Source: Longimicrobium sp.
GTDB lineage: Bacteria > Gemmatimonadota > Gemmatimonadetes > Longimicrobiales > Longimicrobiaceae
Direction: 5' to 3'
NCBI GenBank assembly: GCA_036387335.1
Contig: DASVTZ010000096.1
Span: forward strand, 1 to 38,906
Length of the DNA stretch: 38,906 nt
Positions within the stretch are counted from its first letter, which is position 1. Each line of letters opens with the position of its first letter. The notes below the pieces were generated by a model. That model ran no database searches and was not told where the DNA came from. It saw only the letters and a list, made by a program, of their open reading frames with translations. A program made the position numbers and the translations under genes. Below are positions 2,749 through 38,906 of the stretch, in pieces.

Positions 2749-3477
2749 TCAGACGGGTGCCTCCGGGTTCAGGGGACCAGATAGGCGCTGCGCGTCGAAG
2801 CCTTCCTGGCGGATGCGGAGGTCGTAGTACAGGACCGTGGTCACCGCGCTGACGAACGGATAGACGAGGCAGACCACCACGCCGAGCAGCGGATCCATGT
2901 ACCGCGGGTCGAGCCCCAGCCCCATCGCCACCACGATCGCGAGCATGCCCCCCAGCAACGCCACGCCAAAGATCGCCCACGCCGCCACGACCGTGGTCAG
3001 GATGTGCACCATGAAGCCGTTCGTCAGCGCGCGGGAGCGTCCGTACGATGCGTAGGCGCCGGCGCCTTCCAGCACGACGGCGGCGGGCATGGCAAAGGTC
3101 CACGCGTAGAAGATGAACGCGGGCCCCACCAGCATCAGGAACCCCACTACGAGCAGAATCCCCTGGAAGATCGACGCGCCCAGGATGCTTCCGGAGCGGC
3201 TCACGACCTCGCGTACGCTCCGCCTGACGTCCGTCTCCCCTCCCGTGTAGATGTCGGACACGACCGCCATCACCGCGGTACTCGCCGCCAGCATGAGGAG
3301 GCAGCCGATGATGCCGACTACGACGCTCCGCTCGGGCAGCACGAGCATGATAAGGATGCCCGGGACGAGGAAAACGGCCGAGGCGAGCACCACCACGTCG
3401 TAGTGCGAGAGGATGATCTGGAACGCCGCATTGAGGATCTCCCCGGGGCGGCGGGCGCGGGGCTGAAGGGCCTGCAT
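2749..3477 (-). CDS. Multi-pass membrane protein (second of a tandem pair)
   Basis: A 242-residue integral membrane protein of unknown function. A short cytosolic N-terminus containing RRPGEILNAAFQI leads into about six hydrophobic segments (around residues 27-50, 54-72, 100-125, 155-180 and 195-215, some possibly double). It closes with TTVLYYDLRIRQEGFD, a signature seen in proteins annotated as having a glycerophosphoryl-diester-phosphodiesterase membrane domain. No catalytic phosphodiesterase residues are present, so an enzyme label would be unjustified. By eye more than half of it is identical to the next upstream gene, 36 bases away, so the two arose by tandem duplication. The start ATG at 3477 has GAGGAAA upstream. 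Confidence 0.8.
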   Translation of the reverse strand: MQALQPRARRPGEILNAAFQIILSHYDVVVLASAVFLVPGILIMLVLPERSVVVGIIGCLLMLAASTAVMAVVSDIYTGGETDVRRSVREVVSRSGSILGASIFQGILLVVGFLMLVGPAFIFYAWTFAMPAAVVLEGAGAYASYGRSRALTNGFMVHILTTVVAAWAIFGVALLGGMLAIVVAMGLGLDPRYMDPLLGVVVCLVYPFVSAVTTVLYYDLRIRQEGFDAQRLSGPLNPEAPV

Positions 3478-3513: not shown

Positions 3514-4263
3514 CTACGCGCCGAAGGGTAGTGCATCGGACTCCGCGTCGTCCATCTTGCCCGCGAGGAATTCCACGTCGAAGCCTTCCTGCCGGATGCG
3601 CAGGTCGTAGTAAAGCACCGTCGTCACTACGCTGATGAACGGATAGACGAGGCAGACCAGGATGCCGGAGAAAACGTCCGCGAACCGCTCGTCGATTCCC
3701 CCCGTCTCGAACACCGCGCTGAGCGCAAAGATTCCTCCAAAGAACACCACGCCCACGATCAGCCACGCAATCACGAGCGTGGCCAGGATGTGGCCCACGT
3801 ACCCCTTCGCCAGCGCGCGCGACCGCCCGAACGAGTCGGTGGCCCTGACGCCTTCAAGGATCACGACGGCCTGCATCGCGAAGCTCCAGGCGTAAAAGAT
3901 GAACGCGGGCACCACGAGCAGGAGGAGCCCTATCACCAGCAGGACTCCCTGCAGGATCGCCGATCCCACGACGCTGCCGAAGCGGCTGGCGACCTCGGTG
4001 ATGCTCCGCCTGACGTTCGCTTCTTCGCCCGTGTAGATGTCGGACGTGACCACCAGCACCGCCGTGCTCGCCGCGATCGTAAGGAGGCGGTCCGCGATGC
4101 CCGAAATGGGGTGCTCCTCGGGGAGCGCGAGCATGAGGAGGATGCTCGGGACGAGGAACACGGCCGAGGCGAGCAGCACGACATCGTAATGGGCCCGGAC
4201 GATCTGGAACGCGGCGTCCAGGATCTCGCCGGGGCGGCGAGGGCGGAGCTGGGGAGCCTGCAT
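3514..4263 (-). CDS. Multi-pass membrane protein (first of a tandem pair)
   Basis: A 249-residue paralogue of the gene downstream, with the same RRPGEILDAAFQI opening, the same spacing of hydrophobic segments, the conserved PAFIFYAW and GRSRAL motifs, and the same YYDLRIRQEGFD ending. Function is unknown; a role in membrane organisation or as a transport-like component would be a guess. The reading frame is open 24 codons further upstream, but the ATG at 4263 is chosen because CGGGAGGACC stands directly before it and because its N-terminus then matches the paralogue. A TATTAT -10-like sequence (4314-4319) lies about 50 bases upstream without a clear -35, so the pair may have its own promoter after the helicase gene. 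Confidence 0.82.
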   Translation of the reverse strand: MQAPQLRPRRPGEILDAAFQIVRAHYDVVLLASAVFLVPSILLMLALPEEHPISGIADRLLTIAASTAVLVVTSDIYTGEEANVRRSITEVASRFGSVVGSAILQGVLLVIGLLLLVVPAFIFYAWSFAMQAVVILEGVRATDSFGRSRALAKGYVGHILATLVIAWLIVGVVFFGGIFALSAVFETGGIDERFADVFSGILVCLVYPFISVVTTVLYYDLRIRQEGFDVEFLAGKMDDAESDALPFGA

Positions 4264-4368
4264 GGTCCTCCCGGATTTGGGGATGGTTTCGCGCGCGGGT
4301 GGGAAAGCAGATGATAATACGGGACGGGCGGGCAAGAACAGCGGATCACAGGCTTCGCGATGGCGCCG

Positions 4369-12144: not shown

Positions 12145-13091
12145 TGCCGCAGCCTCCGCTCGCGGCGCCGGAAGAAGGAGAGCACCGCGTTGGAGGTCGG
12201 CTCGTTCGTCGCCAGCGCGATCTCCTCCATCCCCAGGCGCCGGAAGATGCGCCGCATCGCCATGCGCTCATCGCGGACGGCCTCGCGGTAGCGCTGGCGG
12301 ATCTCGTCAGAGCTGGTGTCCACGATCACCTCCGCCCCCGTTTCCGGATCGCGCACGCGCAGGAGTCCGGCGTCGGGAAGCTCGTCGTCCGCGGGGTCGG
12401 TCAGGACGACGGGGATGACGTCGTGGCGCGCGGATGCGGCCGTGAAGGCGCGATCCACATCGGCCAGCGCGGGGCCGACGACGAAATCCGAGACCACGAA
12501 GACGATGGAGCGCGAGCGCAGCAGCCGCGTCGCGTAGCCGATCGACGCCGCCAGGTCCGTCCCCCGCCCCGTCGGCCGGAAGGCGATCAGGTCGCGCAGG
12601 ATGCGCATCACGTGGCGCCTCCCCTTTCGCGGGGGCACGAAGAGCTCCACGCGGTCGGTGAAGACGAGGAGCCCCACGCGGTCGTTGTTGCGCACGGCGG
12701 ACATCGCCAGCGTGGCGGCGGCCTCCACCACCATCTCGCTCTTGAAGCGCGCCCGCGTCCCCCACCGCTGCGATCCGGAAAGGTCGACGGCGAGGAGCAC
12801 TGTCAGCTCGCGCTCCTCCACGTACTTCTTGACGAAGACGCCGCCCGTGCGCGCGGAGACGTTCCAGTCGATCGTGCGCACGTCGTCGCCAGGGAGGTAC
12901 TCGCGCACCTCCACGAACTCGATCCCCTGCCCCTTGAACACGGAATGGTACTCGCCGCTGAACCTCGAGGTCACCAGCCCGCGCGTGCGCAGCTCCACCC
13001 GCCGCACCTGGCGGAGGATCTCCTGGAGCGGAGCGGGGGGCGGAAGGGCGGGCGGGCTGGGGCGCCGCCGGAAAAGGTCCAGCAGCCCCAT
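12141..13091 (-). CDS. DUF58 protein of the MoxR operon
   Basis: A 316-residue cytosolic DUF58 protein, a VWA-like relative that nearly always sits next to moxR. The family signature GEYHSVFKGQGIEFVEVREY and PGDDVRTIDWNVSARTG occupies about 46-83. DLSGS at 103-107 is the adhesion-site-like motif, and RRHVMRILRDLIAF and VVSDF follow. It has no membrane segment, unlike many DUF58 proteins. The ATG at 13091 shares one base with the moxR stop (TGATG), so translation is coupled. Roles are inferred: a client or adaptor for the MoxR ATPase. Confidence 0.92.
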   Translation of the reverse strand: MGLLDLFRRRPSPPALPPPAPLQEILRQVRRVELRTRGLVTSRFSGEYHSVFKGQGIEFVEVREYLPGDDVRTIDWNVSARTGGVFVKKYVEERELTVLLAVDLSGSQRWGTRARFKSEMVVEAAATLAMSAVRNNDRVGLLVFTDRVELFVPPRKGRRHVMRILRDLIAFRPTGRGTDLAASIGYATRLLRSRSIVFVVSDFVVGPALADVDRAFTAASARHDVIPVVLTDPADDELPDAGLLRVRDPETGAEVIVDTSSDEIRQRYREAVRDERMAMRRIFRRLGMEEIALATNEPTSNAVLSFFRRRERRLRQ

Positions 13092-14077
13092 CAGGGCACG
13101 CGCACGACTTCGAAGATGCGTTTCACCACGTCCTCCGAAGTCACCTCCTCCGCCTCGGCCTCGTACGTCAGCACCACGCGGTGGCGCAGCACGTCGGGAC
13201 CGATCGCCTTCACGTCGTCCGGCACCACGAAGTTGCGGCCGCGCAGGTAGGCATGGGCGCGCGCGCAGGCCGCCAGCGCCAGCGTCGCGCGTGGCGATGC
13301 GCCGAACTCGATCAGCGGCTGCAGCTCGGCGGCGCCGTGGCTGCGCGGGTCGCGGGTGGCGCCCACCAGGTCCAGGATGTAGTCGGCGATCTTTTCGTCC
13401 AGGTAGAGCCCCGCCACCACGCGCCGCGCGGCCAGGATCTCCTCCGGGCCGGCCACGCGCCGCACCGGCTCCTCGCCCACGCCCGCCCCACGCCGCAGGA
13501 TCTCGCGCTCCTCGTCGCGGGTGGGGTAGCCCACGCGCACCTTGAGCATGAAGCGGTCGACCTGCGCCTCGGGGAGGGGGTAGGTGCCGGTCTGCTCGAT
13601 GGGGTTCTGCGTGGCGAGCACCAGGAACGGCTGCGGCAGCGGGTGCGTCTCGCCGCCGATGGTCACCTGGCGCTCCTGCATCGCCTCCAGCAGCGCGGCC
13701 TGCACCTTGGCGGGGGCGCGGTTCACCTCGTCGGCCAGCACGATGTTGGCGAAGATCGGCCCGCGGTGCGGCACGAACTCCCCCGTGCGATTGTTGTAGA
13801 TCGTCGTCCCCACCACGTCGGCGGGAAGGAGGTCGGGGGTGAACTGGATGCGCTGGAACGAGGCGTGGATCGTCTCCGCGAGCGTGCGCACGGCGAGCGT
13901 CTTGGCGAGGCCGGGGAGCCCTTCGAAGAGGACGTGCCCCCCCGTGAGCAGCCCGATCAGGAGCCGCTCGATCATGTACTGCTGGCCCACGACGCGGCGG
14001 TGCACCTCTTCCACGACGCGGTCCAGGAACTCGGCGCGCGGGATCTCCGCGGGCGCGTACGGCGAAGGGATGCTCAT
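13091..14077 (-). CDS. moxR: MoxR-family AAA+ ATPase
   Basis: A 328-residue AAA+ ATPase with chaperone-like activity that matures or remodels protein complexes, here presumably those of its VWA neighbours. Walker A is GLPGLAKT (53-60), Walker B is IVLADEVNRA with Asp116/Glu117, sensor-1 region is LVLATQNPIEQTGTYPLPEAQVDRF (typical of MoxR), and a C-terminal lid follows (IEFGASPRATLAL). It is the first gene of the six-gene operon running to 8404. The ATG at 14077 has only a weak purine stretch upstream (GAAGAACGGACCGG). A strong hairpin 33-63 bases upstream of the start lies in or just before its leader. Confidence 0.96.
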   Translation of the reverse strand: MSIPSPYAPAEIPRAEFLDRVVEEVHRRVVGQQYMIERLLIGLLTGGHVLFEGLPGLAKTLAVRTLAETIHASFQRIQFTPDLLPADVVGTTIYNNRTGEFVPHRGPIFANIVLADEVNRAPAKVQAALLEAMQERQVTIGGETHPLPQPFLVLATQNPIEQTGTYPLPEAQVDRFMLKVRVGYPTRDEEREILRRGAGVGEEPVRRVAGPEEILAARRVVAGLYLDEKIADYILDLVGATRDPRSHGAAELQPLIEFGASPRATLALAACARAHAYLRGRNFVVPDDVKAIGPDVLRHRVVLTYEAEAEEVTSEDVVKRIFEVVRVP

Positions 14078-14109: not shown

Positions 14110-14140
14110 GGCCCGACACGAGGAAATCTCGTGCCGGGCC
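14110..14140. terminator. 13-bp hairpin just upstream of moxR
   Basis: GGCCCGACACGAG (14110-14122) pairs with CTCGTGCCGGGCC (14128-14140) around a 5-base loop with one mismatch. There is no T-run on either side, so it may be a terminator for upstream minus-strand transcription, a leader structure of moxR, or a protein-binding palindrome. Confidence 0.45.
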
Positions 14141-14152
14141 GACAAACTACGA

Positions 14153-14183
14153 TCTCACGCAAAGATGCAAAGGCGCGAAGAAC
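14153..14183. repeat. Hairpin-repeat arm at the left edge of the low-GC segment
   Basis: Reads CTCACGCAAAGATGCAAAGG and continues to GCGAAGAAC. It is a close relative of the left arm of the hairpin at 20163-20194, and its inverted partner is at 16906-16935, about 2.7 kb away. The two together bracket the lower-GC segment. Confidence 0.75.
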
Positions 14184-14195
14184 TGCAACTGCGGG

Positions 14196-14222
14196 CTCAC
14201 ACAGAGACACAGTCATCTCTGT
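14196..14222. repeat. CTCACACAGAGACACAG repeat, single arm
   Basis: Matches the left arm of the hairpin repeat at 29016-29037 and is followed by a partial inverted CTCTGT. It directly adjoins the other repeat arm at the left edge of the low-GC segment, so two unrelated hairpin-repeat families meet here. Confidence 0.6.
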
Positions 14223-14271
14223 CCCCGCTTCACCCCGGCAGATCACGTTCCGCGAAACTCACTGGTTTGCT

Positions 14272-15984
14272 CTACGGGTTTCCTGCGGCTGTACCAAGCA
14301 CTGTCGGCGTCGCGGGCGCGGTGGGCGCCGGGACCACACGTGGGAGAATGACATCCTTAATCGTGAAAACCTTCTCGGCAGGATCCGTTTGGTTCACGAT
14401 CGGTACCTGCACCGTCAGGATCATGTCACATACATCGTAGTCACCGGAAGCTTGAGAGAAAGCTTGTGCCGGGGTGAGCGTGCGCGTGACCTCATATGTG
14501 TACACCCGCTGCGTCGCATCGGCGGATTTGAAGACTGCGGCAATCGAGGCGTTGCCGGAACTCTGGCACCGGAGTTCCGCCACGCCATCACCCGCACTAA
14601 CTGCAAAGTTTACCGGCGCATCGGCGTCAGTGAACTCGACCGGAACGGTCCATTGGGCGAATGTTCGCCTGTTTATCACATTATGTTGTGCCGGGGCGAC
14701 GCGCTGCATTTCGGGACCCGGGCGGGGAATTGGATGCGGCGTTCGGGAGAGCGCAGCGGTGAGGGGCACGATCAGGGTGTCGTTGCCGATTGGTGTATTT
14801 TCCACGAAGGAGTACGGGAGGGTGTATTTCGCGGAATCTACGTTGGTCGTGAACGAAACTCGGAACACACAGGTTCGAGCACGGGCTTCCACATGCCCGG
14901 AGTGAACGCGAGTATCAGATGCCCGAAGACGCCACCGGCTGTTGTTGCACAAATCGGAGGGTATCCCCTCAATCTGGCGTTCCACTCTCGCGGGGACTCC
15001 ACGCACCACTTTCGGGTCCGTGCCGTAAGGCGTGGGTTGGAGGTTCCGGACACGCAACGAAATCGCACGAGGGCTCGGAAGAGTGTCCCATGTGGCGATT
15101 GGAAGACCCTCTCGATTAACATGGATGAATGTGTCGAACGTGCGCGATCTCATCTCGCTTGATCGCTGAACCGAGAGTTCGGCATCCGCGTTGAGGCTTC
15201 CCGCTACCCAACTCCCGCCTGCCCGCGCCGACCCGGATCCGGTACTGCCGCTGCCGCTTGCTGTCTGCTCGAAGAACACGACGCCTGTGAAGGTAGTAAT
15301 GTAGTGGAGGGCAGGCTGCTGTCGGTTGAACAGCGCTCGTCCTGGGCCACGGTAGTGCTCCCACAGCGCAAGGTGCGATGCGAGCCCCTGTGCACCTGGC
15401 GCGCCGAGGTTCGAAAACAGCGGGGACTTGAAGCGTCCCTGAGCCAGAACCACGGCCCCACTCACGGTATCCTGACGGCTGGCGGCCATCTGAATGGTGG
15501 CAATCGGGATTGCTCGGAGGTCCCCGCTTAGTGCTGCCTTGGCGAGACTGATGCACGTTTGCGAGTAGATGTTGCTGGTCTGCACGCTGTCCGGCTCGGG
15601 GGCGTCCGAGAGCCCGACCAACTGCACGGGCAACTCCCGTTCGGGACGACGGATGCCGGGCTGCAGGTTGTTCGACTCGAAAATATACGTAAACAGCGCC
15701 CGCGCACCGACATCCCTCCAACTCTCGTTGATCGGCTGGTCAAGCTTGATGCGTCGTCGGACCACAACTGGGATGGATGAAAGCTTCTGATCATCCGAGG
15801 TATTACTACGCCATTTGAGCTTGCAGTCGGCTCGGAACACGCCAAGACGGTTCTCGAGCGCCGACTCCAGAGGCGACGGCTGTGAAGTAATTCGTTGGAA
15901 CTGCGCCTGCGCTTGATCCGGGATGACAATCAACGCGCAGAGCGGAACTAGCTTGCGTGCCATACGTGCTACGGTCGTATACAT
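14272..15984 (-). CDS. Unrecognised secreted protein in a low-GC segment
   Basis: A 570-residue protein I do not recognise. The N-terminus (MARKLVPLCALIVIPDQAQAQ) looks like a Sec signal peptide with cleavage after AQA, so it is probably periplasmic or outer-membrane associated. The mature part is beta-rich in appearance, has few cysteines (six or so, in pairs suggestive of disulfides), a Gly/Ser linker near the middle (ASGSGSTGSGSARAGG) and a Pro/Ala/Thr-rich tail. No membrane helix or catalytic motif is visible. Composition differs from neighbours: sampled lines are 53-63% GC against 70-80%. Three starts are possible (16035, 15984, 15963). 15984 is preferred because it keeps a positively charged region before the hydrophobic core; no start has a strong ribosome site. 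It is probably acquired, and whether it is expressed is unknown. Confidence 0.65.
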   Translation of the reverse strand: MYTTVARMARKLVPLCALIVIPDQAQAQFQRITSQPSPLESALENRLGVFRADCKLKWRSNTSDDQKLSSIPVVVRRRIKLDQPINESWRDVGARALFTYIFESNNLQPGIRRPERELPVQLVGLSDAPEPDSVQTSNIYSQTCISLAKAALSGDLRAIPIATIQMAASRQDTVSGAVVLAQGRFKSPLFSNLGAPGAQGLASHLALWEHYRGPGRALFNRQQPALHYITTFTGVVFFEQTASGSGSTGSGSARAGGSWVAGSLNADAELSVQRSSEMRSRTFDTFIHVNREGLPIATWDTLPSPRAISLRVRNLQPTPYGTDPKVVRGVPARVERQIEGIPSDLCNNSRWRLRASDTRVHSGHVEARARTCVFRVSFTTNVDSAKYTLPYSFVENTPIGNDTLIVPLTAALSRTPHPIPRPGPEMQRVAPAQHNVINRRTFAQWTVPVEFTDADAPVNFAVSAGDGVAELRCQSSGNASIAAVFKSADATQRVYTYEVTRTLTPAQAFSQASGDYDVCDMILTVQVPIVNQTDPAEKVFTIKDVILPRVVPAPTAPATPTVLGTAAGNP

Positions 15985-16905
15985 TGCGCGGGCCTTTACG
16001 AGGTTGTGTAGATTACAACTACGAGTTGGTACCATCTAGCGGGGGACCTGCGGTCGTCACTTGGCTTCACGGAGTGGTCAAAACCTCGTGTGTATCATCC
16101 CGTCTGTATGTGGACTGACATCGACCGAAGCGCCGTTACGTGTCTATCGCGCGGTTAACCGCTACTGCGGTCAAAGCGGGGCTAGGAGCGAGTTCCTGAC
16201 TGAGTCTGAACTGCTGCTGGTGGGTTGGGACACTGGGGTGGGCTCGCGAGTTCGATGCGATCGGTGGATCAGCGACGTTCCTCATCCACGGATGACGACC
16301 GAGACGATCTTAAGGGGACGGGCCTTTTACGATTAGCGCTGACCAGACGGCGGCGCAAGGGATACGTGCGCCGCGCCGCCGAGCTCCCAATGCACGCTTG
16401 ACGCGCGCTGGTCCGCGTAGCCCTGCGAGAGTTATAGTCTACTCGCGGCGGCGGTGCCCAAGAGCGCCTCGCAATTGTGCTCGTAAAGCATCGCCCTTGC
16501 AGGGTTTGAGTCTCTGGCGCGGGATTGACCCTCCACCTCGGGGCGCCGCTTCCCTGGACAAGATTCGGGATCAAGACGCGGCGGATAGGCGCAAGTATTT
16601 GGAGCAACTAGACCGCGACCTGTTCCGTTGAGGCATGCGCCCCGTCGACAACGTGGACCCCGTATTCGTGGAAGTGCCGGCAGATCGATTGGCAAATGTG
16701 TTGTCTCTGGGGCTCACCCTTCTCCCACCCAAACCAACGGGGAAATCACCCAAGACAACGGCCCCGCTGACGCACCGCTCGGTGCGGTGGTCGAGCCAGC
16801 ATCGGCATCACACCCGGAGGAACTCGTTACCGCGTAGCGAAGGCGGACACTCAGAACTAAGTGCTCCAGGATCTGCAGCAGGCGAAAAACGGCATTTCCT
16901 TTATT
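15985..16905. other. Gene-poor lower-GC stretch
   Basis: About 0.9 kb in which I find no convincing gene. Composition is near 53% GC in sampled lines. Short open frames occur on both strands (for example plus-strand 16398-16631, ending in a plausible charged helix DAADRRKYLEQLDRDLFR), but none has a recognisable domain or a ribosome site. It may hold the promoter of the unknown secreted protein and remnants of decayed acquired genes. Confidence 0.5.
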
Positions 16906-16935
16906 GTTCTTCGCGTCTTCGCGCCTTGCGTGAGA
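16906..16935. repeat. Hairpin-repeat arm at the right edge of the low-GC segment
   Basis: Reads GTTCTTCGCGTCTTCGCGCC and continues to TTGCGTGAGA. It is the inverted partner of 14153-14183 and a relative of the right arm at 20227-20258. It lies 13 bases beyond the end of the HEAT-repeat gene. Confidence 0.75.
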
Positions 16936-16948
16936 CGGCCGTTTCTGT

Positions 16949-18466
16949 TCACGCCATCGTGGGCGAGAGGGCCTTGAAGACGGCGTCGCGGACTTCGCCG
17001 TTGCGGTCGCGGAGGAGGGGCTGGAGGACCGCGCGGGCCGCGTCGCCGCCGATCTCGCCGAGGGCGCGAACGGCCTCGATGCGCACCGCCGGGGGGGTGC
17101 GGGAGAAGAAGCCGCCGGCACCCGCGCGCTCCGCCAGCGCCGGGATCACGCGCGGGTTGCCGATGCGGCCCAGCGCGCGGAGCATCTCGACCAGCGCCTC
17201 CGCGTCCGTCTCGGCGGCGAGGCGTTCGAGGAGGGGGGCGACGGCGGATTGCGACTTGGTGAGGCCCAGCCCCAGCGCCGCCGCCGCGCGCAGGGAGGCT
17301 TCGCGGTCGGTGAGCGCCTTGACGAGGAGCGGCACCGCCTGCTCGTCGCCGTACTTGGTGAGCGCCAGGATCGTCTCGCGCCGCACGCGGGCGTCGGCGT
17401 GGTGGATGGTCCGCGCGAAGTGCTCCGCCGCGTCCGCGCTGCGGATCTCGCCCAGGATGCCGACCATGTTGCGCACCACGAACCAGCGCTGGTCGCCGAT
17501 CATGTCCTCCAGCAGCGGCACGCCCACCGCGTCCAGCGCCACCAGCGTGTCGCGGTACGCGCGCCGCGCCGAGAGGTCGCTCGCCGCCGTCAGCTCGCGC
17601 ACCAGCGGCGACACCGCCTCTGCGCCCAGGTGCAGCAGGGTGGAGCGAAGGGCGGTGCGCTCCTCGTCGGAGCGGGTGCGCCCCAGGCGCCGAACCAGCT
17701 CGTCGACGATGGTGGGATCGGCGATGCGGTGCATGGCCAGCATCACCGCGCCCCGGGTGGCGGGGTTGCGGCCATGGAGCTGCTCCGCGTCACCCCGCAG
17801 CTCGTCGAGGACGACGATGGCGCGGTCCATCTCGTCTTTTTGCATGTAGTACTGCGCCACGAGCTCCAGCCGCTGGAGCGCCTCCACCCGCTGGCTGTCG
17901 TTCCCCTCGTGCAGCATGCGGCGCAGCTCGGCCGTGTCCTCCGTCGCCACGCGCTGCGCGGAGAGCTGCACCTGCTCGTACATGTCCTGCGCGCTCCACA
18001 GCGAAATCCCGTCGGCGCGCGCCCCGGAGGCGGTCGCCTGCGCGGACTGCGGCTGGATCCAGTCGCCGTTCACGGACACGCGAGCCGCGCCCGCCGCCGC
18101 CAGCGCCGCCGCGATGCCGCCCACAGCGCGGGCCACCCGGGGCGGCAGGGTGCAGGCGGAGAGGAAACGCCCCACCGCCTCGATCCCCATGTCGCGGCGC
18201 AGCACGAGCGAGCGCACGCCGTGCTCGTCGAGCCGCGCGGCGAAGCGCTCCACGTGCGGCGAGCGGCGCGGCGTCGGCTCACCCGCCAGCACCAGGCAGG
18301 TGGGGTTGACGTCGATGCGCGTGTCGTCCTCGCGAGCCTGGAGGGCCGCGTCCAGCTTGAGGATCCCCTGCACCAGCGTGGGGTGCTTGAGGGGGTAGAA
18401 CTCGCTGAGGGCGAACCCCCGGGCGAGCTCCACGAGCAGCGCGGAACCGCTCTTGTTGCCGTGCAC
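16949..18466 (-). CDS. HEAT-repeat protein
   Basis: A 505-residue, apparently soluble protein. The N-terminal third (about 1-175) is an uncharacterised helical/mixed domain containing FYPLKHPTLVQGILKLDAAL. From about 190 on it is a chain of HEAT/PBS-lyase-type helical pairs, for example MLHEGNDSQRVEALQRL, ADARVRRETILALTKYGDEQAVPLL, TDREASLRAAAALGLG, GNPRVIPAL and RNGEVRDAVFKALSPTMA. Such solenoids bind proteins or nucleic acid; the partner is unknown. The start is a GTG at 18466 with a G-rich stretch (GGGGGGAAC) before it, 21 bases after the Rossmann-fold gene, so the two are probably one operon. Confidence 0.83.
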   Translation of the reverse strand: MHGNKSGSALLVELARGFALSEFYPLKHPTLVQGILKLDAALQAREDDTRIDVNPTCLVLAGEPTPRRSPHVERFAARLDEHGVRSLVLRRDMGIEAVGRFLSACTLPPRVARAVGGIAAALAAAGAARVSVNGDWIQPQSAQATASGARADGISLWSAQDMYEQVQLSAQRVATEDTAELRRMLHEGNDSQRVEALQRLELVAQYYMQKDEMDRAIVVLDELRGDAEQLHGRNPATRGAVMLAMHRIADPTIVDELVRRLGRTRSDEERTALRSTLLHLGAEAVSPLVRELTAASDLSARRAYRDTLVALDAVGVPLLEDMIGDQRWFVVRNMVGILGEIRSADAAEHFARTIHHADARVRRETILALTKYGDEQAVPLLVKALTDREASLRAAAALGLGLTKSQSAVAPLLERLAAETDAEALVEMLRALGRIGNPRVIPALAERAGAGGFFSRTPPAVRIEAVRALGEIGGDAARAVLQPLLRDRNGEVRDAVFKALSPTMA

Positions 18467-20162: not shown

Positions 20163-20258
20163 CTCACGCAAAGGCGCGAAGACGCAAAGAAGAACTACGG
20201 AGAAAGTCCTGAAGCCACCTTTCTACTTTTTCTTCGCGTCTTTGCGCCTTCGCGTGAG
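20163..20258. repeat. Long hairpin repeat between rluB and the SDR-like gene
   Basis: A 32-base left arm (20163-20194, starting CTCACGCAAAGGCGCGAAGA) and a right arm (20227-20258, ending GCGCCTTCGCGTGAG) pair with only four mismatches around a 32-base loop. It falls after rluB and before the next gene on the minus strand, so the RNA hairpin could end transcription. Variants of the same arms bracket the low-GC segment at 14153 and 16935. Confidence 0.85.
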
Positions 20259-23544: not shown

Positions 23545-23926
23545 GCCCTCACCCCCGCTCGTTCCTCGCTGCCCCCTCTCCCGATAACGGGAGAGGGCTG
23601 CGCCCTCGCCGTTATCGAGAGAGGGGGCGGAACTACGCGCAACGCCGATGCCCCGTAGGGGCGCGATTTATCGCGCCCGTGCCCGCCGCCGCTCCTTCGC
23701 CCGCACTGCACGCCGATTCTCGGTAGGGGCAGACCTGCGTGTCTGCCCTCCCTTGCCGCCACCCTGATCCCCGCCCACGGCACCACAACCACGTAGGGGC
23801 CGCCCCACGTGGCTGCCCGTGCCCGCCCGCGCGCCGTCCCCCGCACCCCGGCATAGACCCATGCAAGACGCCCCTCCCCCAGGCTGTTTTGGGGGAGGGG
23901 CCGCGAGGAACGAGCGGGGGAGGGGG
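23545..23926. repeat. Composite repeat cassette, copy 1 (modules e-a-b-c-d)
   Basis: Fills the 403-base gap between convergent rpsT and the zinc-ribbon gene; no gene is present. Modules in order: e (about 23569-23628, CCCGATAACGGGAGAG type); a (23653-23690, GTAGGGGCGCGATTTATCGC); b (23722-23753, GTAGGGGCAGACCTGCGTGT); c (23792-23830, GTAGGGGCCGCCCCACGTGG); d (23871-23926, with a 10-bp CCCCTCCCCC/GGGGGAGGGG stem). Modules a, b and c share the leader GTAGGGGC and then each form their own short palindrome. Module d may act as terminator for the pyr operon arriving from the right. Confidence 0.88.
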
Positions 23927-23935
23927 CCCTTGTTG

Positions 23936-28992: not shown

Positions 28993-29015
28993 CGCGGATA
29001 GAGCAGCAAAACAGC

Positions 29016-29101
29016 CTCACACAGAGGCCACAGAGAGAACTACAAGCCACAGATGACCCCTCATGCCGTCCTTCCTCTGTGTCTCTGTGTCTCTGTATGA
29101 G
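29016..29101. repeat. CTCACACAGAG hairpin repeat between tadA and pyrR
   Basis: Left arm 29016-29037 (CTCACACAGAGGCCACAGAG...) and inverted right arm about 29080-29101 (ending CTCTGTATGAG) enclose about 40 bases. The right arm is built of GTCTCT repeats. It lies after the tadA stop on the minus strand and may serve as terminator. A single left arm of the same family is at 14196-14222. Confidence 0.75.
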
Positions 29102-29111
29102 CCCCGCTGTT

Positions 29112-29576: not shown

Positions 29577-29618
29577 CGGCAGGTCGGGCGTGCGGTTGGC
29601 AGCGTGCGGAGCAGCGGC

Positions 29619-29801
29619 GGGCACGGGCAGCCACGCGGGGCTGCCCCTACGGACATCGTGGTGCGTACGCGGCTGCCGGAGCGGCGTCGGGCACGGGCGC
29701 GATGAATCGCGCCCCTACGGGTATTGCGCGGCACGTGCGGTTCTCCCCCTCACCCGCCCTGCGCCCCCGCAGGCGGGGGAGGGGGCCGGGGGGAGGGGGC
29801 C
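29619..29801. repeat. Composite repeat cassette, copy 2 (inverted, modules c-a-f)
   Basis: Occupies most of the 287-base gap between tadA and lexA. Read on the plus strand it holds inverted c (29619-29652), inverted a (29688-29720) and inverted f (29743-29801, CGCCCCCGCAGGCGGGGG core). On the minus strand this is f-a-c, the same relative order and orientation as the cassette after glnS, but without module b between a and c and without d. Confidence 0.85.
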
Positions 29802-29809
29802 AAACGCCA

Positions 29810-29840
29810 CGACCCCGGCAACCATCGGTCGCCGGGGTCG
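29810..29840 (-). terminator. Probable terminator of lexA
   Basis: A 10-bp stem CGACCCCGGC (29810-29819) with GCCGGGGTCG (29831-29840) around an 11-base loop, 23 bases after the lexA stop. Only a short T-containing tail (GTGGCGTTTGG) follows on the minus strand. Confidence 0.65.
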
Positions 29841-36181: not shown

Positions 36182-38557
<2,376 letters not shown>

Positions 38558-38906
38558 GGCCCCCTCCCCCCGACCCCCTCCCCCGCCTGCGGGGGCGCAG
38601 GGCGGGTGAGGGGGAGAACACCGTGTCATGCGCCCACATCCGTAGGGGCGCGATTCATCGCGCCCGTGCCCGCCGCCGCGCCGCCCCCCGCACGTGGCGC
38701 AGATTTCCGTAGGGGCAGACCTGCGTGTCTGCCCTCCCTTCCCCCGCACCGCTCCCGCCCCTTCGCACCCAATCATGTAGGGGCCGCCCCGCGTGGCTGC
38801 CCGTGCCCGCCCCCGCGACGAACCCCGCCCACGGGCATCAACGCACGCCACCGCCCCTCCCCCGCAGTTTGGGGGAGGGGCCGCGAGGTGACGAGCGGGG
38901 GTGGGG
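38558..38906. repeat. Composite repeat cassette, copy 3 (modules f-a-b-c-d, reaching the window edge)
   Basis: The 349 bases after glnS contain no gene. Modules: f (38558-38617, core CCCCCGCCTGCGGGGGCG); a (38641-38680, GTAGGGGCGCGATTCATCGC); b (38708-38739); c (38776-38812); d (38854-38906, CCCCTCCCCC...GGGGGAGGGG). Order a-b-c-d and spacing match the cassette at 23545-23926, though the filler between modules differs. Module f directly after the stop codon could end glnS transcription. Confidence 0.88.

Follow-up and report, generated by a model that had tools for sequence, protein, structure and literature searches.

Inverted repeat arms around low-GC DNA in Longimicrobium belong to a palindrome family that brackets GxxExxY nuclease genes in many phyla

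Among described systems, the closest to the repeats reported here are REPINs, in which two inverted short repeats and a spacer form a hairpin found in many dispersed intergenic copies, and their RAYTs, or REP-associated tyrosine transposases (PMC3116915, PMC2817692). Mobile insertion cassettes and MITEs, in which non-autonomous DNA lies between inverted repeats with no transposase inside, offer a second comparison. A search of the open-access literature for the arm sequences described below, for PF13366/TIGR04256, and for nuclease-linked palindromes returned no relevant description; subscription papers, preprints, and database notes lay outside that search. The locus considered here is part of a 38,906-nucleotide stretch of a Longimicrobium sp. 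genome (5.82 Mb in 265 contigs, 72% GC), hereafter the window, in which two repeat arms enclose 2.7 kb of DNA between a moxR gene and a HEAT-repeat gene (Table 1). Taken alone, the cargo between the arms is of little interest, an ordinary insertion of orphan DNA at a hairpin; our main find, of high interest, is the nuclease-linked hairpin family that its arms expose.

Table 1. Coordinates of the arms, hairpins, and genes discussed in the text (window positions).
Feature	Position	Strand	Remarks
moxR flank (AAA_3 ATPase)	13091..14077	-	
Left outer arm, type A (CTCACGCAAAGATGCAAAGGCGCGAAGA)	14154..14181	+	Left arm sequence CTCACGCAAAGATGCAAAGGCGCGAAGAA
A-B spacer GAACTGCAACTGCGGG of composite hairpin	14180..14195	+	Aligned to composite copies L002-L008
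Inner arm type B, left part CTCACACAGAGACACAG, first 17 nt	14196..14212	+	Composite-repeat match stops here
Remnant stem TCTCTGT, 7 bp	14216-14222		After left part of B arm
587-aa orphan ORF	14272..16035	-	N-terminus resembling a signal peptide (inner start MARKLVPLCALIVIPDQAQAQ); GC3 low
Low-GC stretch without convincing gene	16036..16892	.	
Remnant B'-A' spacer TTTATTGTTC			Before right arm 16907..16934
Right outer arm, type A'	16907..16934	-	Reverse complement CTCACGCAAGGCGCGAAGACGCGAAGAA; one base deleted relative to usual arm
HEAT-repeat protein flank	16949..18466	-	
Compact hairpin, same family as window arms	20163..20258	.	
Third family hairpin, type B	29010..29111	.	Ends AACAGC/GCTGTT

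The original prediction placed inverted arms at 14153-14183 and 16906-16935 and called them relatives of the hairpin at 20163-20258. These arms are real, inward-facing, and of that family, with limits refined as in Table 1, and they are not chance sequence: the GCRAAG form of the arm, at up to three mismatches, has 146 copies genome-wide (74 forward and 72 reverse) against none for a reversed control pattern. Eighty of the first 100 matches pair up as 40 compact hairpins, in which a 16-nt loop prevails. With CACAGAG and GCGGAG units added to the pattern, 677 matches were obtained at up to two mismatches, and the reversed version had 24; with a degenerate 22-mer at three mismatches, such a control was uninformative because the units are self-similar. 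The arm consensus, CTCACGCRAAGRCGC..., consists of three 8-nt units beginning CTCAC and carries no GTAG. Arm type is partly genome-specific, and copies without a gene, which consist of two arms joined by a short loop, are scattered between genes. The hairpin at 20163 folds strongly (-32.6 kcal/mol, z -7.2) and has an unusually long loop, most compact GCRAAG copies having loops of 13-17 nt; the fold of the hairpin at 29010 is weak (z -1.4). The window also holds AGTGCGT tandem units, inverted and 234 nt apart (335-365 and 600-630), a possible further arm unit type, and several copies of a second dispersed repeat set (GTAGGGGCGCGATTCATCGCGCCC..., CCCCCTCCCCCG...; 23620-23930, 29590-29830, and 38527-38834), whose GTAGGGG start resembles GTAG-tagged REPs.

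Arms of this family bracket a small GxxExxY nuclease gene in bacteria of many phyla and in one or more archaea. In the genome of the window, one long arm pair (C29) encloses the gene for a 132-aa GxxExxY protein (TIGR04256 / PF13366; 143.8 bits to TIGR04256, cut-off 35), the single such gene of this genome. All 10 genomes of the genus carry a GxxExxY gene, most of them beside or between arms whose unit type is the same on the left and right. A scan of GTDB genomes returned at least 578 GxxExxY loci, of which the best 80 were kept, a sample of closer relatives that includes many phyla and, from the archaea, at least Methanoculleus. Inverted arms, taken as a score of at least 15 between the upstream and downstream 220 nt, lay on both sides of the gene at 62 of the 79 loci with enough flank and in none of 261 same-geometry windows in those loci. 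Owing to the likeness of arms at different loci, 20% of flank pairs mixed between loci still reached 15; their median score was 9.5. Further GxxExxY loci within the phylum had inverted arms in 15 of 22 cases, against 0 of 44 control windows.

Most of the arm pairs at GxxExxY genes are of the CTCACGC... type, some have units like CACAAAGG or GCAACGGC, and the loci of the phylum add further unit types (for example, ACAGGATG and ACGGATGT). Very different units occur at two loci, L244 and L228 (GACAGGATGACAGGA, CCACGGATGTTCACGGATGA), which suggests that the family of arms extends beyond the GCRRAGRC type. A broken GxxExxY gene, in two fragments, was seen near two compact family hairpins in another genome (L059/L063, G003:C39).

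The arms also follow the gene between genomes. Among 150 genomes of the phylum, PF13366 was present in 22 of 23 with arms and in 27 of 127 without (Fisher p = 7e-12, an optimistic value since the genomes are not independent on the tree), and in all 14 genomes with at least two arms. On the other side, 27 of 49 GxxExxY-positive genomes have none of the searched arm types; other unit types exist. In one genome (G009), dozens of other sites match the arms around GxxExxY at about 90-98% identity over 40-50 nt, mostly on both strands and hence as palindromes, and far fewer such copies occur in congeners. In most of the Sphingomonads examined, GxxExxY lies between fabD and fabG (L255-L264, L253). 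At that site in 11 Sphingomonads (10 genomes and one megaplasmid), the arms vary by species among GCGGAG, GCGAAG, CAGAG/CGGAG mosaic, and GCGGCG types while left and right stay complementary: the arm score was 22.4 within loci and 14.6 between them, and none of 20,000 random re-pairings reached the observed value. A further genome (G320) has neither the gene nor the arms between fabD and fabG, which are 12 nt apart, and carries GxxExxY elsewhere (L154). At some loci, namely the Sphingomonad fabD-fabG site and the C29 site in the genus, GxxExxY looks vertically inherited.

GxxExxY proteins are PD-(D/E)XK nucleases of 117-130 aa. A sequence search for a solved structure gave no convincing match, and the predicted structure (pLDDT 96.5) found its best fold match in SSO0001, a Cas4-type nuclease (Z 9.3, 96 residues, 3.4 Å). 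The PADLOC Cas4 profile matched GxxExxY weakly (E 9e-5), and the next fold matches, to restriction endonucleases and Holliday-junction resolvases (Z 6-8), may reflect the shared core alone. In the alignment, E23, E73, and K75 are invariant, and D63, Q87, and Y91 occur in 41 of 42 sequences; the conservation of D63, E73, K75, Q87, and Y91 suggests that GxxExxY is likely an active nuclease.

The arms at moxR are more elaborate than a compact copy. On the left, an A arm, a spacer, and part of a B arm make up the left half of the nested repeat A-B-B'-A', a stretch matched at 42 other sites in the genome; on the right, A' remains with a remnant of its spacer. The enclosed DNA thus either stands in place of the inner B stem of a single composite hairpin or links the halves of two. 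This DNA was predicted to be of lower GC and to encode an unknown secreted protein, and both statements agree with what we found. The 2.7 kb is about 60% GC (57-62%) against about 70-75% outside, and its 587-aa ORF has codon-position GC of 62/51/66% compared with 72-78/43-49/91-96% in four neighbours (moxR, DUF58, HEAT, and pseudouridine synthase), a foreign codon use at the third position; the N-terminus of the orphan resembles a signal peptide. The protein had no relative in the genus, 295 genomes of the class, the GTDB scan, IMG/VR, or phage or plasmid collections, and no match in Pfam, NCBIfam, PHROGs, or PADLOC. One class-level match (E 0.002, 59 aa) fell in its Gly/Ser-rich part and was disregarded, and an AlphaFold model made without an alignment was useless (pLDDT 29). 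A 112-aa ORF at 16269-16607 had no PHROGs match. Judging from composition, the cargo is probably foreign DNA.

The varied gap contents of relatives mark the stretch between moxR and the HEAT-repeat gene as a hot spot for insertions, and it has a hairpin in at least three species, of another type in each. A close sister genome, G005 (protein identity 100% for moxR and 92% for HEAT), has a gap of 179 bp with one well-formed hairpin (z -4.8) and nothing else, which is the empty hairpin that had been proposed as a check. This hairpin, of the same super-family as the window arms, is of type B and lacks the composite A-B structure, so that G005 does not preserve the exact state before insertion. In G008, a lone arm adjoins moxR and 6.6 kb of other DNA fills the gap without being enclosed by arms; other relatives have 0.1-7 kb of unrelated DNA. 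The cargo of the window was absent from the gap in relatives, which have other DNA there. A G+C-rich, terminator-like inverted repeat beside moxR, near 14110-14142, is common to G005 and in part to G008.

Given that the G005 gap holds only a hairpin and that the left end in the window is half of one, a hairpin already in place probably received foreign DNA, either as an insertion or as a replacement of its core. The original prediction had left two options, cargo inserted into a palindromic repeat or mobilised with it. Insertion is the likeliest reading, with a hairpin-only gap in G005 and cargo that ends inside a composite hairpin, and mobilisation finds no support, the cargo being single-copy and without relatives. 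A search of the genome for other cases of arm, cargo, and arm had also been proposed as a check: long pairs do occur at C29, C105, C157, C252, and C262, and the 2.7 kb itself has no second copy in the genome. Both G005 and G002 keep the gene bracketed at C262: in G005 only one of its sides has a hairpin, of type B, and in G002 an arm of type B lies at the same site on the left. In G008, gene and arms are both missing. The bracketed gene at C252 is kept in G005 without arms. A long pair at C241 proved to be two ordinary hairpins. Read from their translations, a VOC protein (L079 2518-3449), a carboxypeptidase-regulatory-like 342-aa protein (L084 6508-7910), a glyoxalase/SRPBCC protein with a VF530-like ORF (L067 15727-16985), and a PAP2-like phosphatase (L081 16403-17650) are also encoded between inward arms. 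Elsewhere in the window, two ORF-region copies, about 72-88% identical, lie in tandem 786 nt apart (2749-3477 and 3514-4335).

We suggest, with rather better than even confidence, that the arms are a REPIN-like repeat whose coding unit is arm-GxxExxY-arm, and that the foreign 2.7 kb was joined into the interior of a hairpin as a passenger. Against this stand the GxxExxY-positive genomes without a searched arm type, the seemingly vertical inheritance of the gene at some loci, the B hairpin of G005, and the lone arm and unenclosed 6.6 kb of G008. That no transposase is visible, as first remarked, is true within the window; the family has this coding form elsewhere. It is about an even call whether GxxExxY is the enzyme of a REPIN/RAYT-like system of many phyla that recognises the arms, spreads and homogenises gene-less hairpins, and through its breaks occasionally captures foreign DNA. 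The hairpin or cruciform form of its own arms would then be what GxxExxY recognises and nicks or cuts, and repair or copying would spread and homogenise the repeats; the association of arms and gene is shown, and we infer the nuclease-driven spread. In the window, a hairpin would have occupied the moxR-HEAT gap before the cargo arrived, and lower-GC foreign DNA would have been joined into its interior with the loss of most of the inner B stem. Capture at a break in the hairpin is the likely route, and the cargo would have been carried along in that event; it would not be a cassette that the arms move.

A possible but less probable explanation is that two independent hairpins flanked a variable gap that foreign DNA entered, that each lost its inner half, and that the bracket is coincidental. 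Two separately decayed hairpins around an ordinary insertion would look alike, the gap is the hot spot described above, and arms elsewhere come and go around retained genes, with arm type changing by species on one side of the C262 gene and the other side empty in G005, and with no arms at all beside the C252 gene there. Bracketing by itself is weak evidence: from an unbiased 476 kb, we estimate about 122 lone arms per genome, and chance alone should give each genome about 1.9 inward brackets within 3 kb. Over 950 kb of sampled sequence, a sample partly biased to lone arms, 41 of 180 arms had no local partner, and outward matches were about as frequent as inward ones. For this reason, and because the C262 and C252 genes persist without the arm pair, we rejected long-range arm pairs as proof of cassettes. 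Against a coincidence, both outer arms at moxR are of the A type, the left end is half a composite in the correct internal order, the right end keeps the matching spacer, and the sister genome has one hairpin at the site, not two.

It is improbable that the arms are just hairpins that the host keeps for termination or mRNA stability, with GxxExxY among them simply as a small intergenic gene. Family hairpins are indeed intergenic and often close to gene ends, but host upkeep of this kind fits poorly with the arm-free control windows near GxxExxY genes, with the co-occurrence of arms and gene across the phylum, and with the genome-specific match between the arms around GxxExxY and the dispersed copies. 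Least probable of all, and very doubtful, is a mobile cassette with the arms as terminal repeats and the cargo moved in trans by GxxExxY, in the manner of mobile insertion cassettes whose transposase comes from elsewhere, for although the arms do bracket several other genes and the genome does encode a GxxExxY protein, the cargo has neither copies nor relatives, bracketed genes outlast their arm pair in the sister genome, arms face outward about as often as inward, and no target-site duplication was recognised by eye.

If a hairpin family tended by GxxExxY is correct, it would give a widespread and uncharacterised family of nucleases a role and would explain very common intergenic palindromes of environmental genomes (those with GCAAAGAC, CACAGAGA, and GCGGAGAC units). 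It would also mean a second origin, based on an unrelated enzyme, for repeats that a vertically inherited gene maintains. The model is directly testable in culturable Sphingomonas.

Compared with mobile insertion cassettes and MITEs, whose layout the window resembles, this locus differs in its single-copy cargo and in showing by eye no duplicated target site, there is no DDE element with these ends, and the arms turn over independently of the genes they bracket. The gene of the coding form is a clear member of the GxxExxY family, which open-access papers name only in passing, in passages without mention of flanking repeats. The organisation of arms and GxxExxY closely parallels that of REPIN/RAYT. 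Besides the dispersed hairpins themselves, the two share a gene of low copy number, inherited for the most part vertically and lying between two inverted copies of the repeat (here at 62/79 and 15/22 loci), repeats inserted into or beside repeats, and a palindrome kept by complementary changes. They differ in the enzyme, which is here a PD-(D/E)XK nuclease instead of an HUH/Y1 (IS200/IS605-like) tyrosine transposase; in the arms, which have no GT(A/G)G head beside the palindrome and are built of three 8-nt units with a CTCAC start; and in range, as GxxExxY arms occur across many phyla, with at least one archaeon among their hosts.
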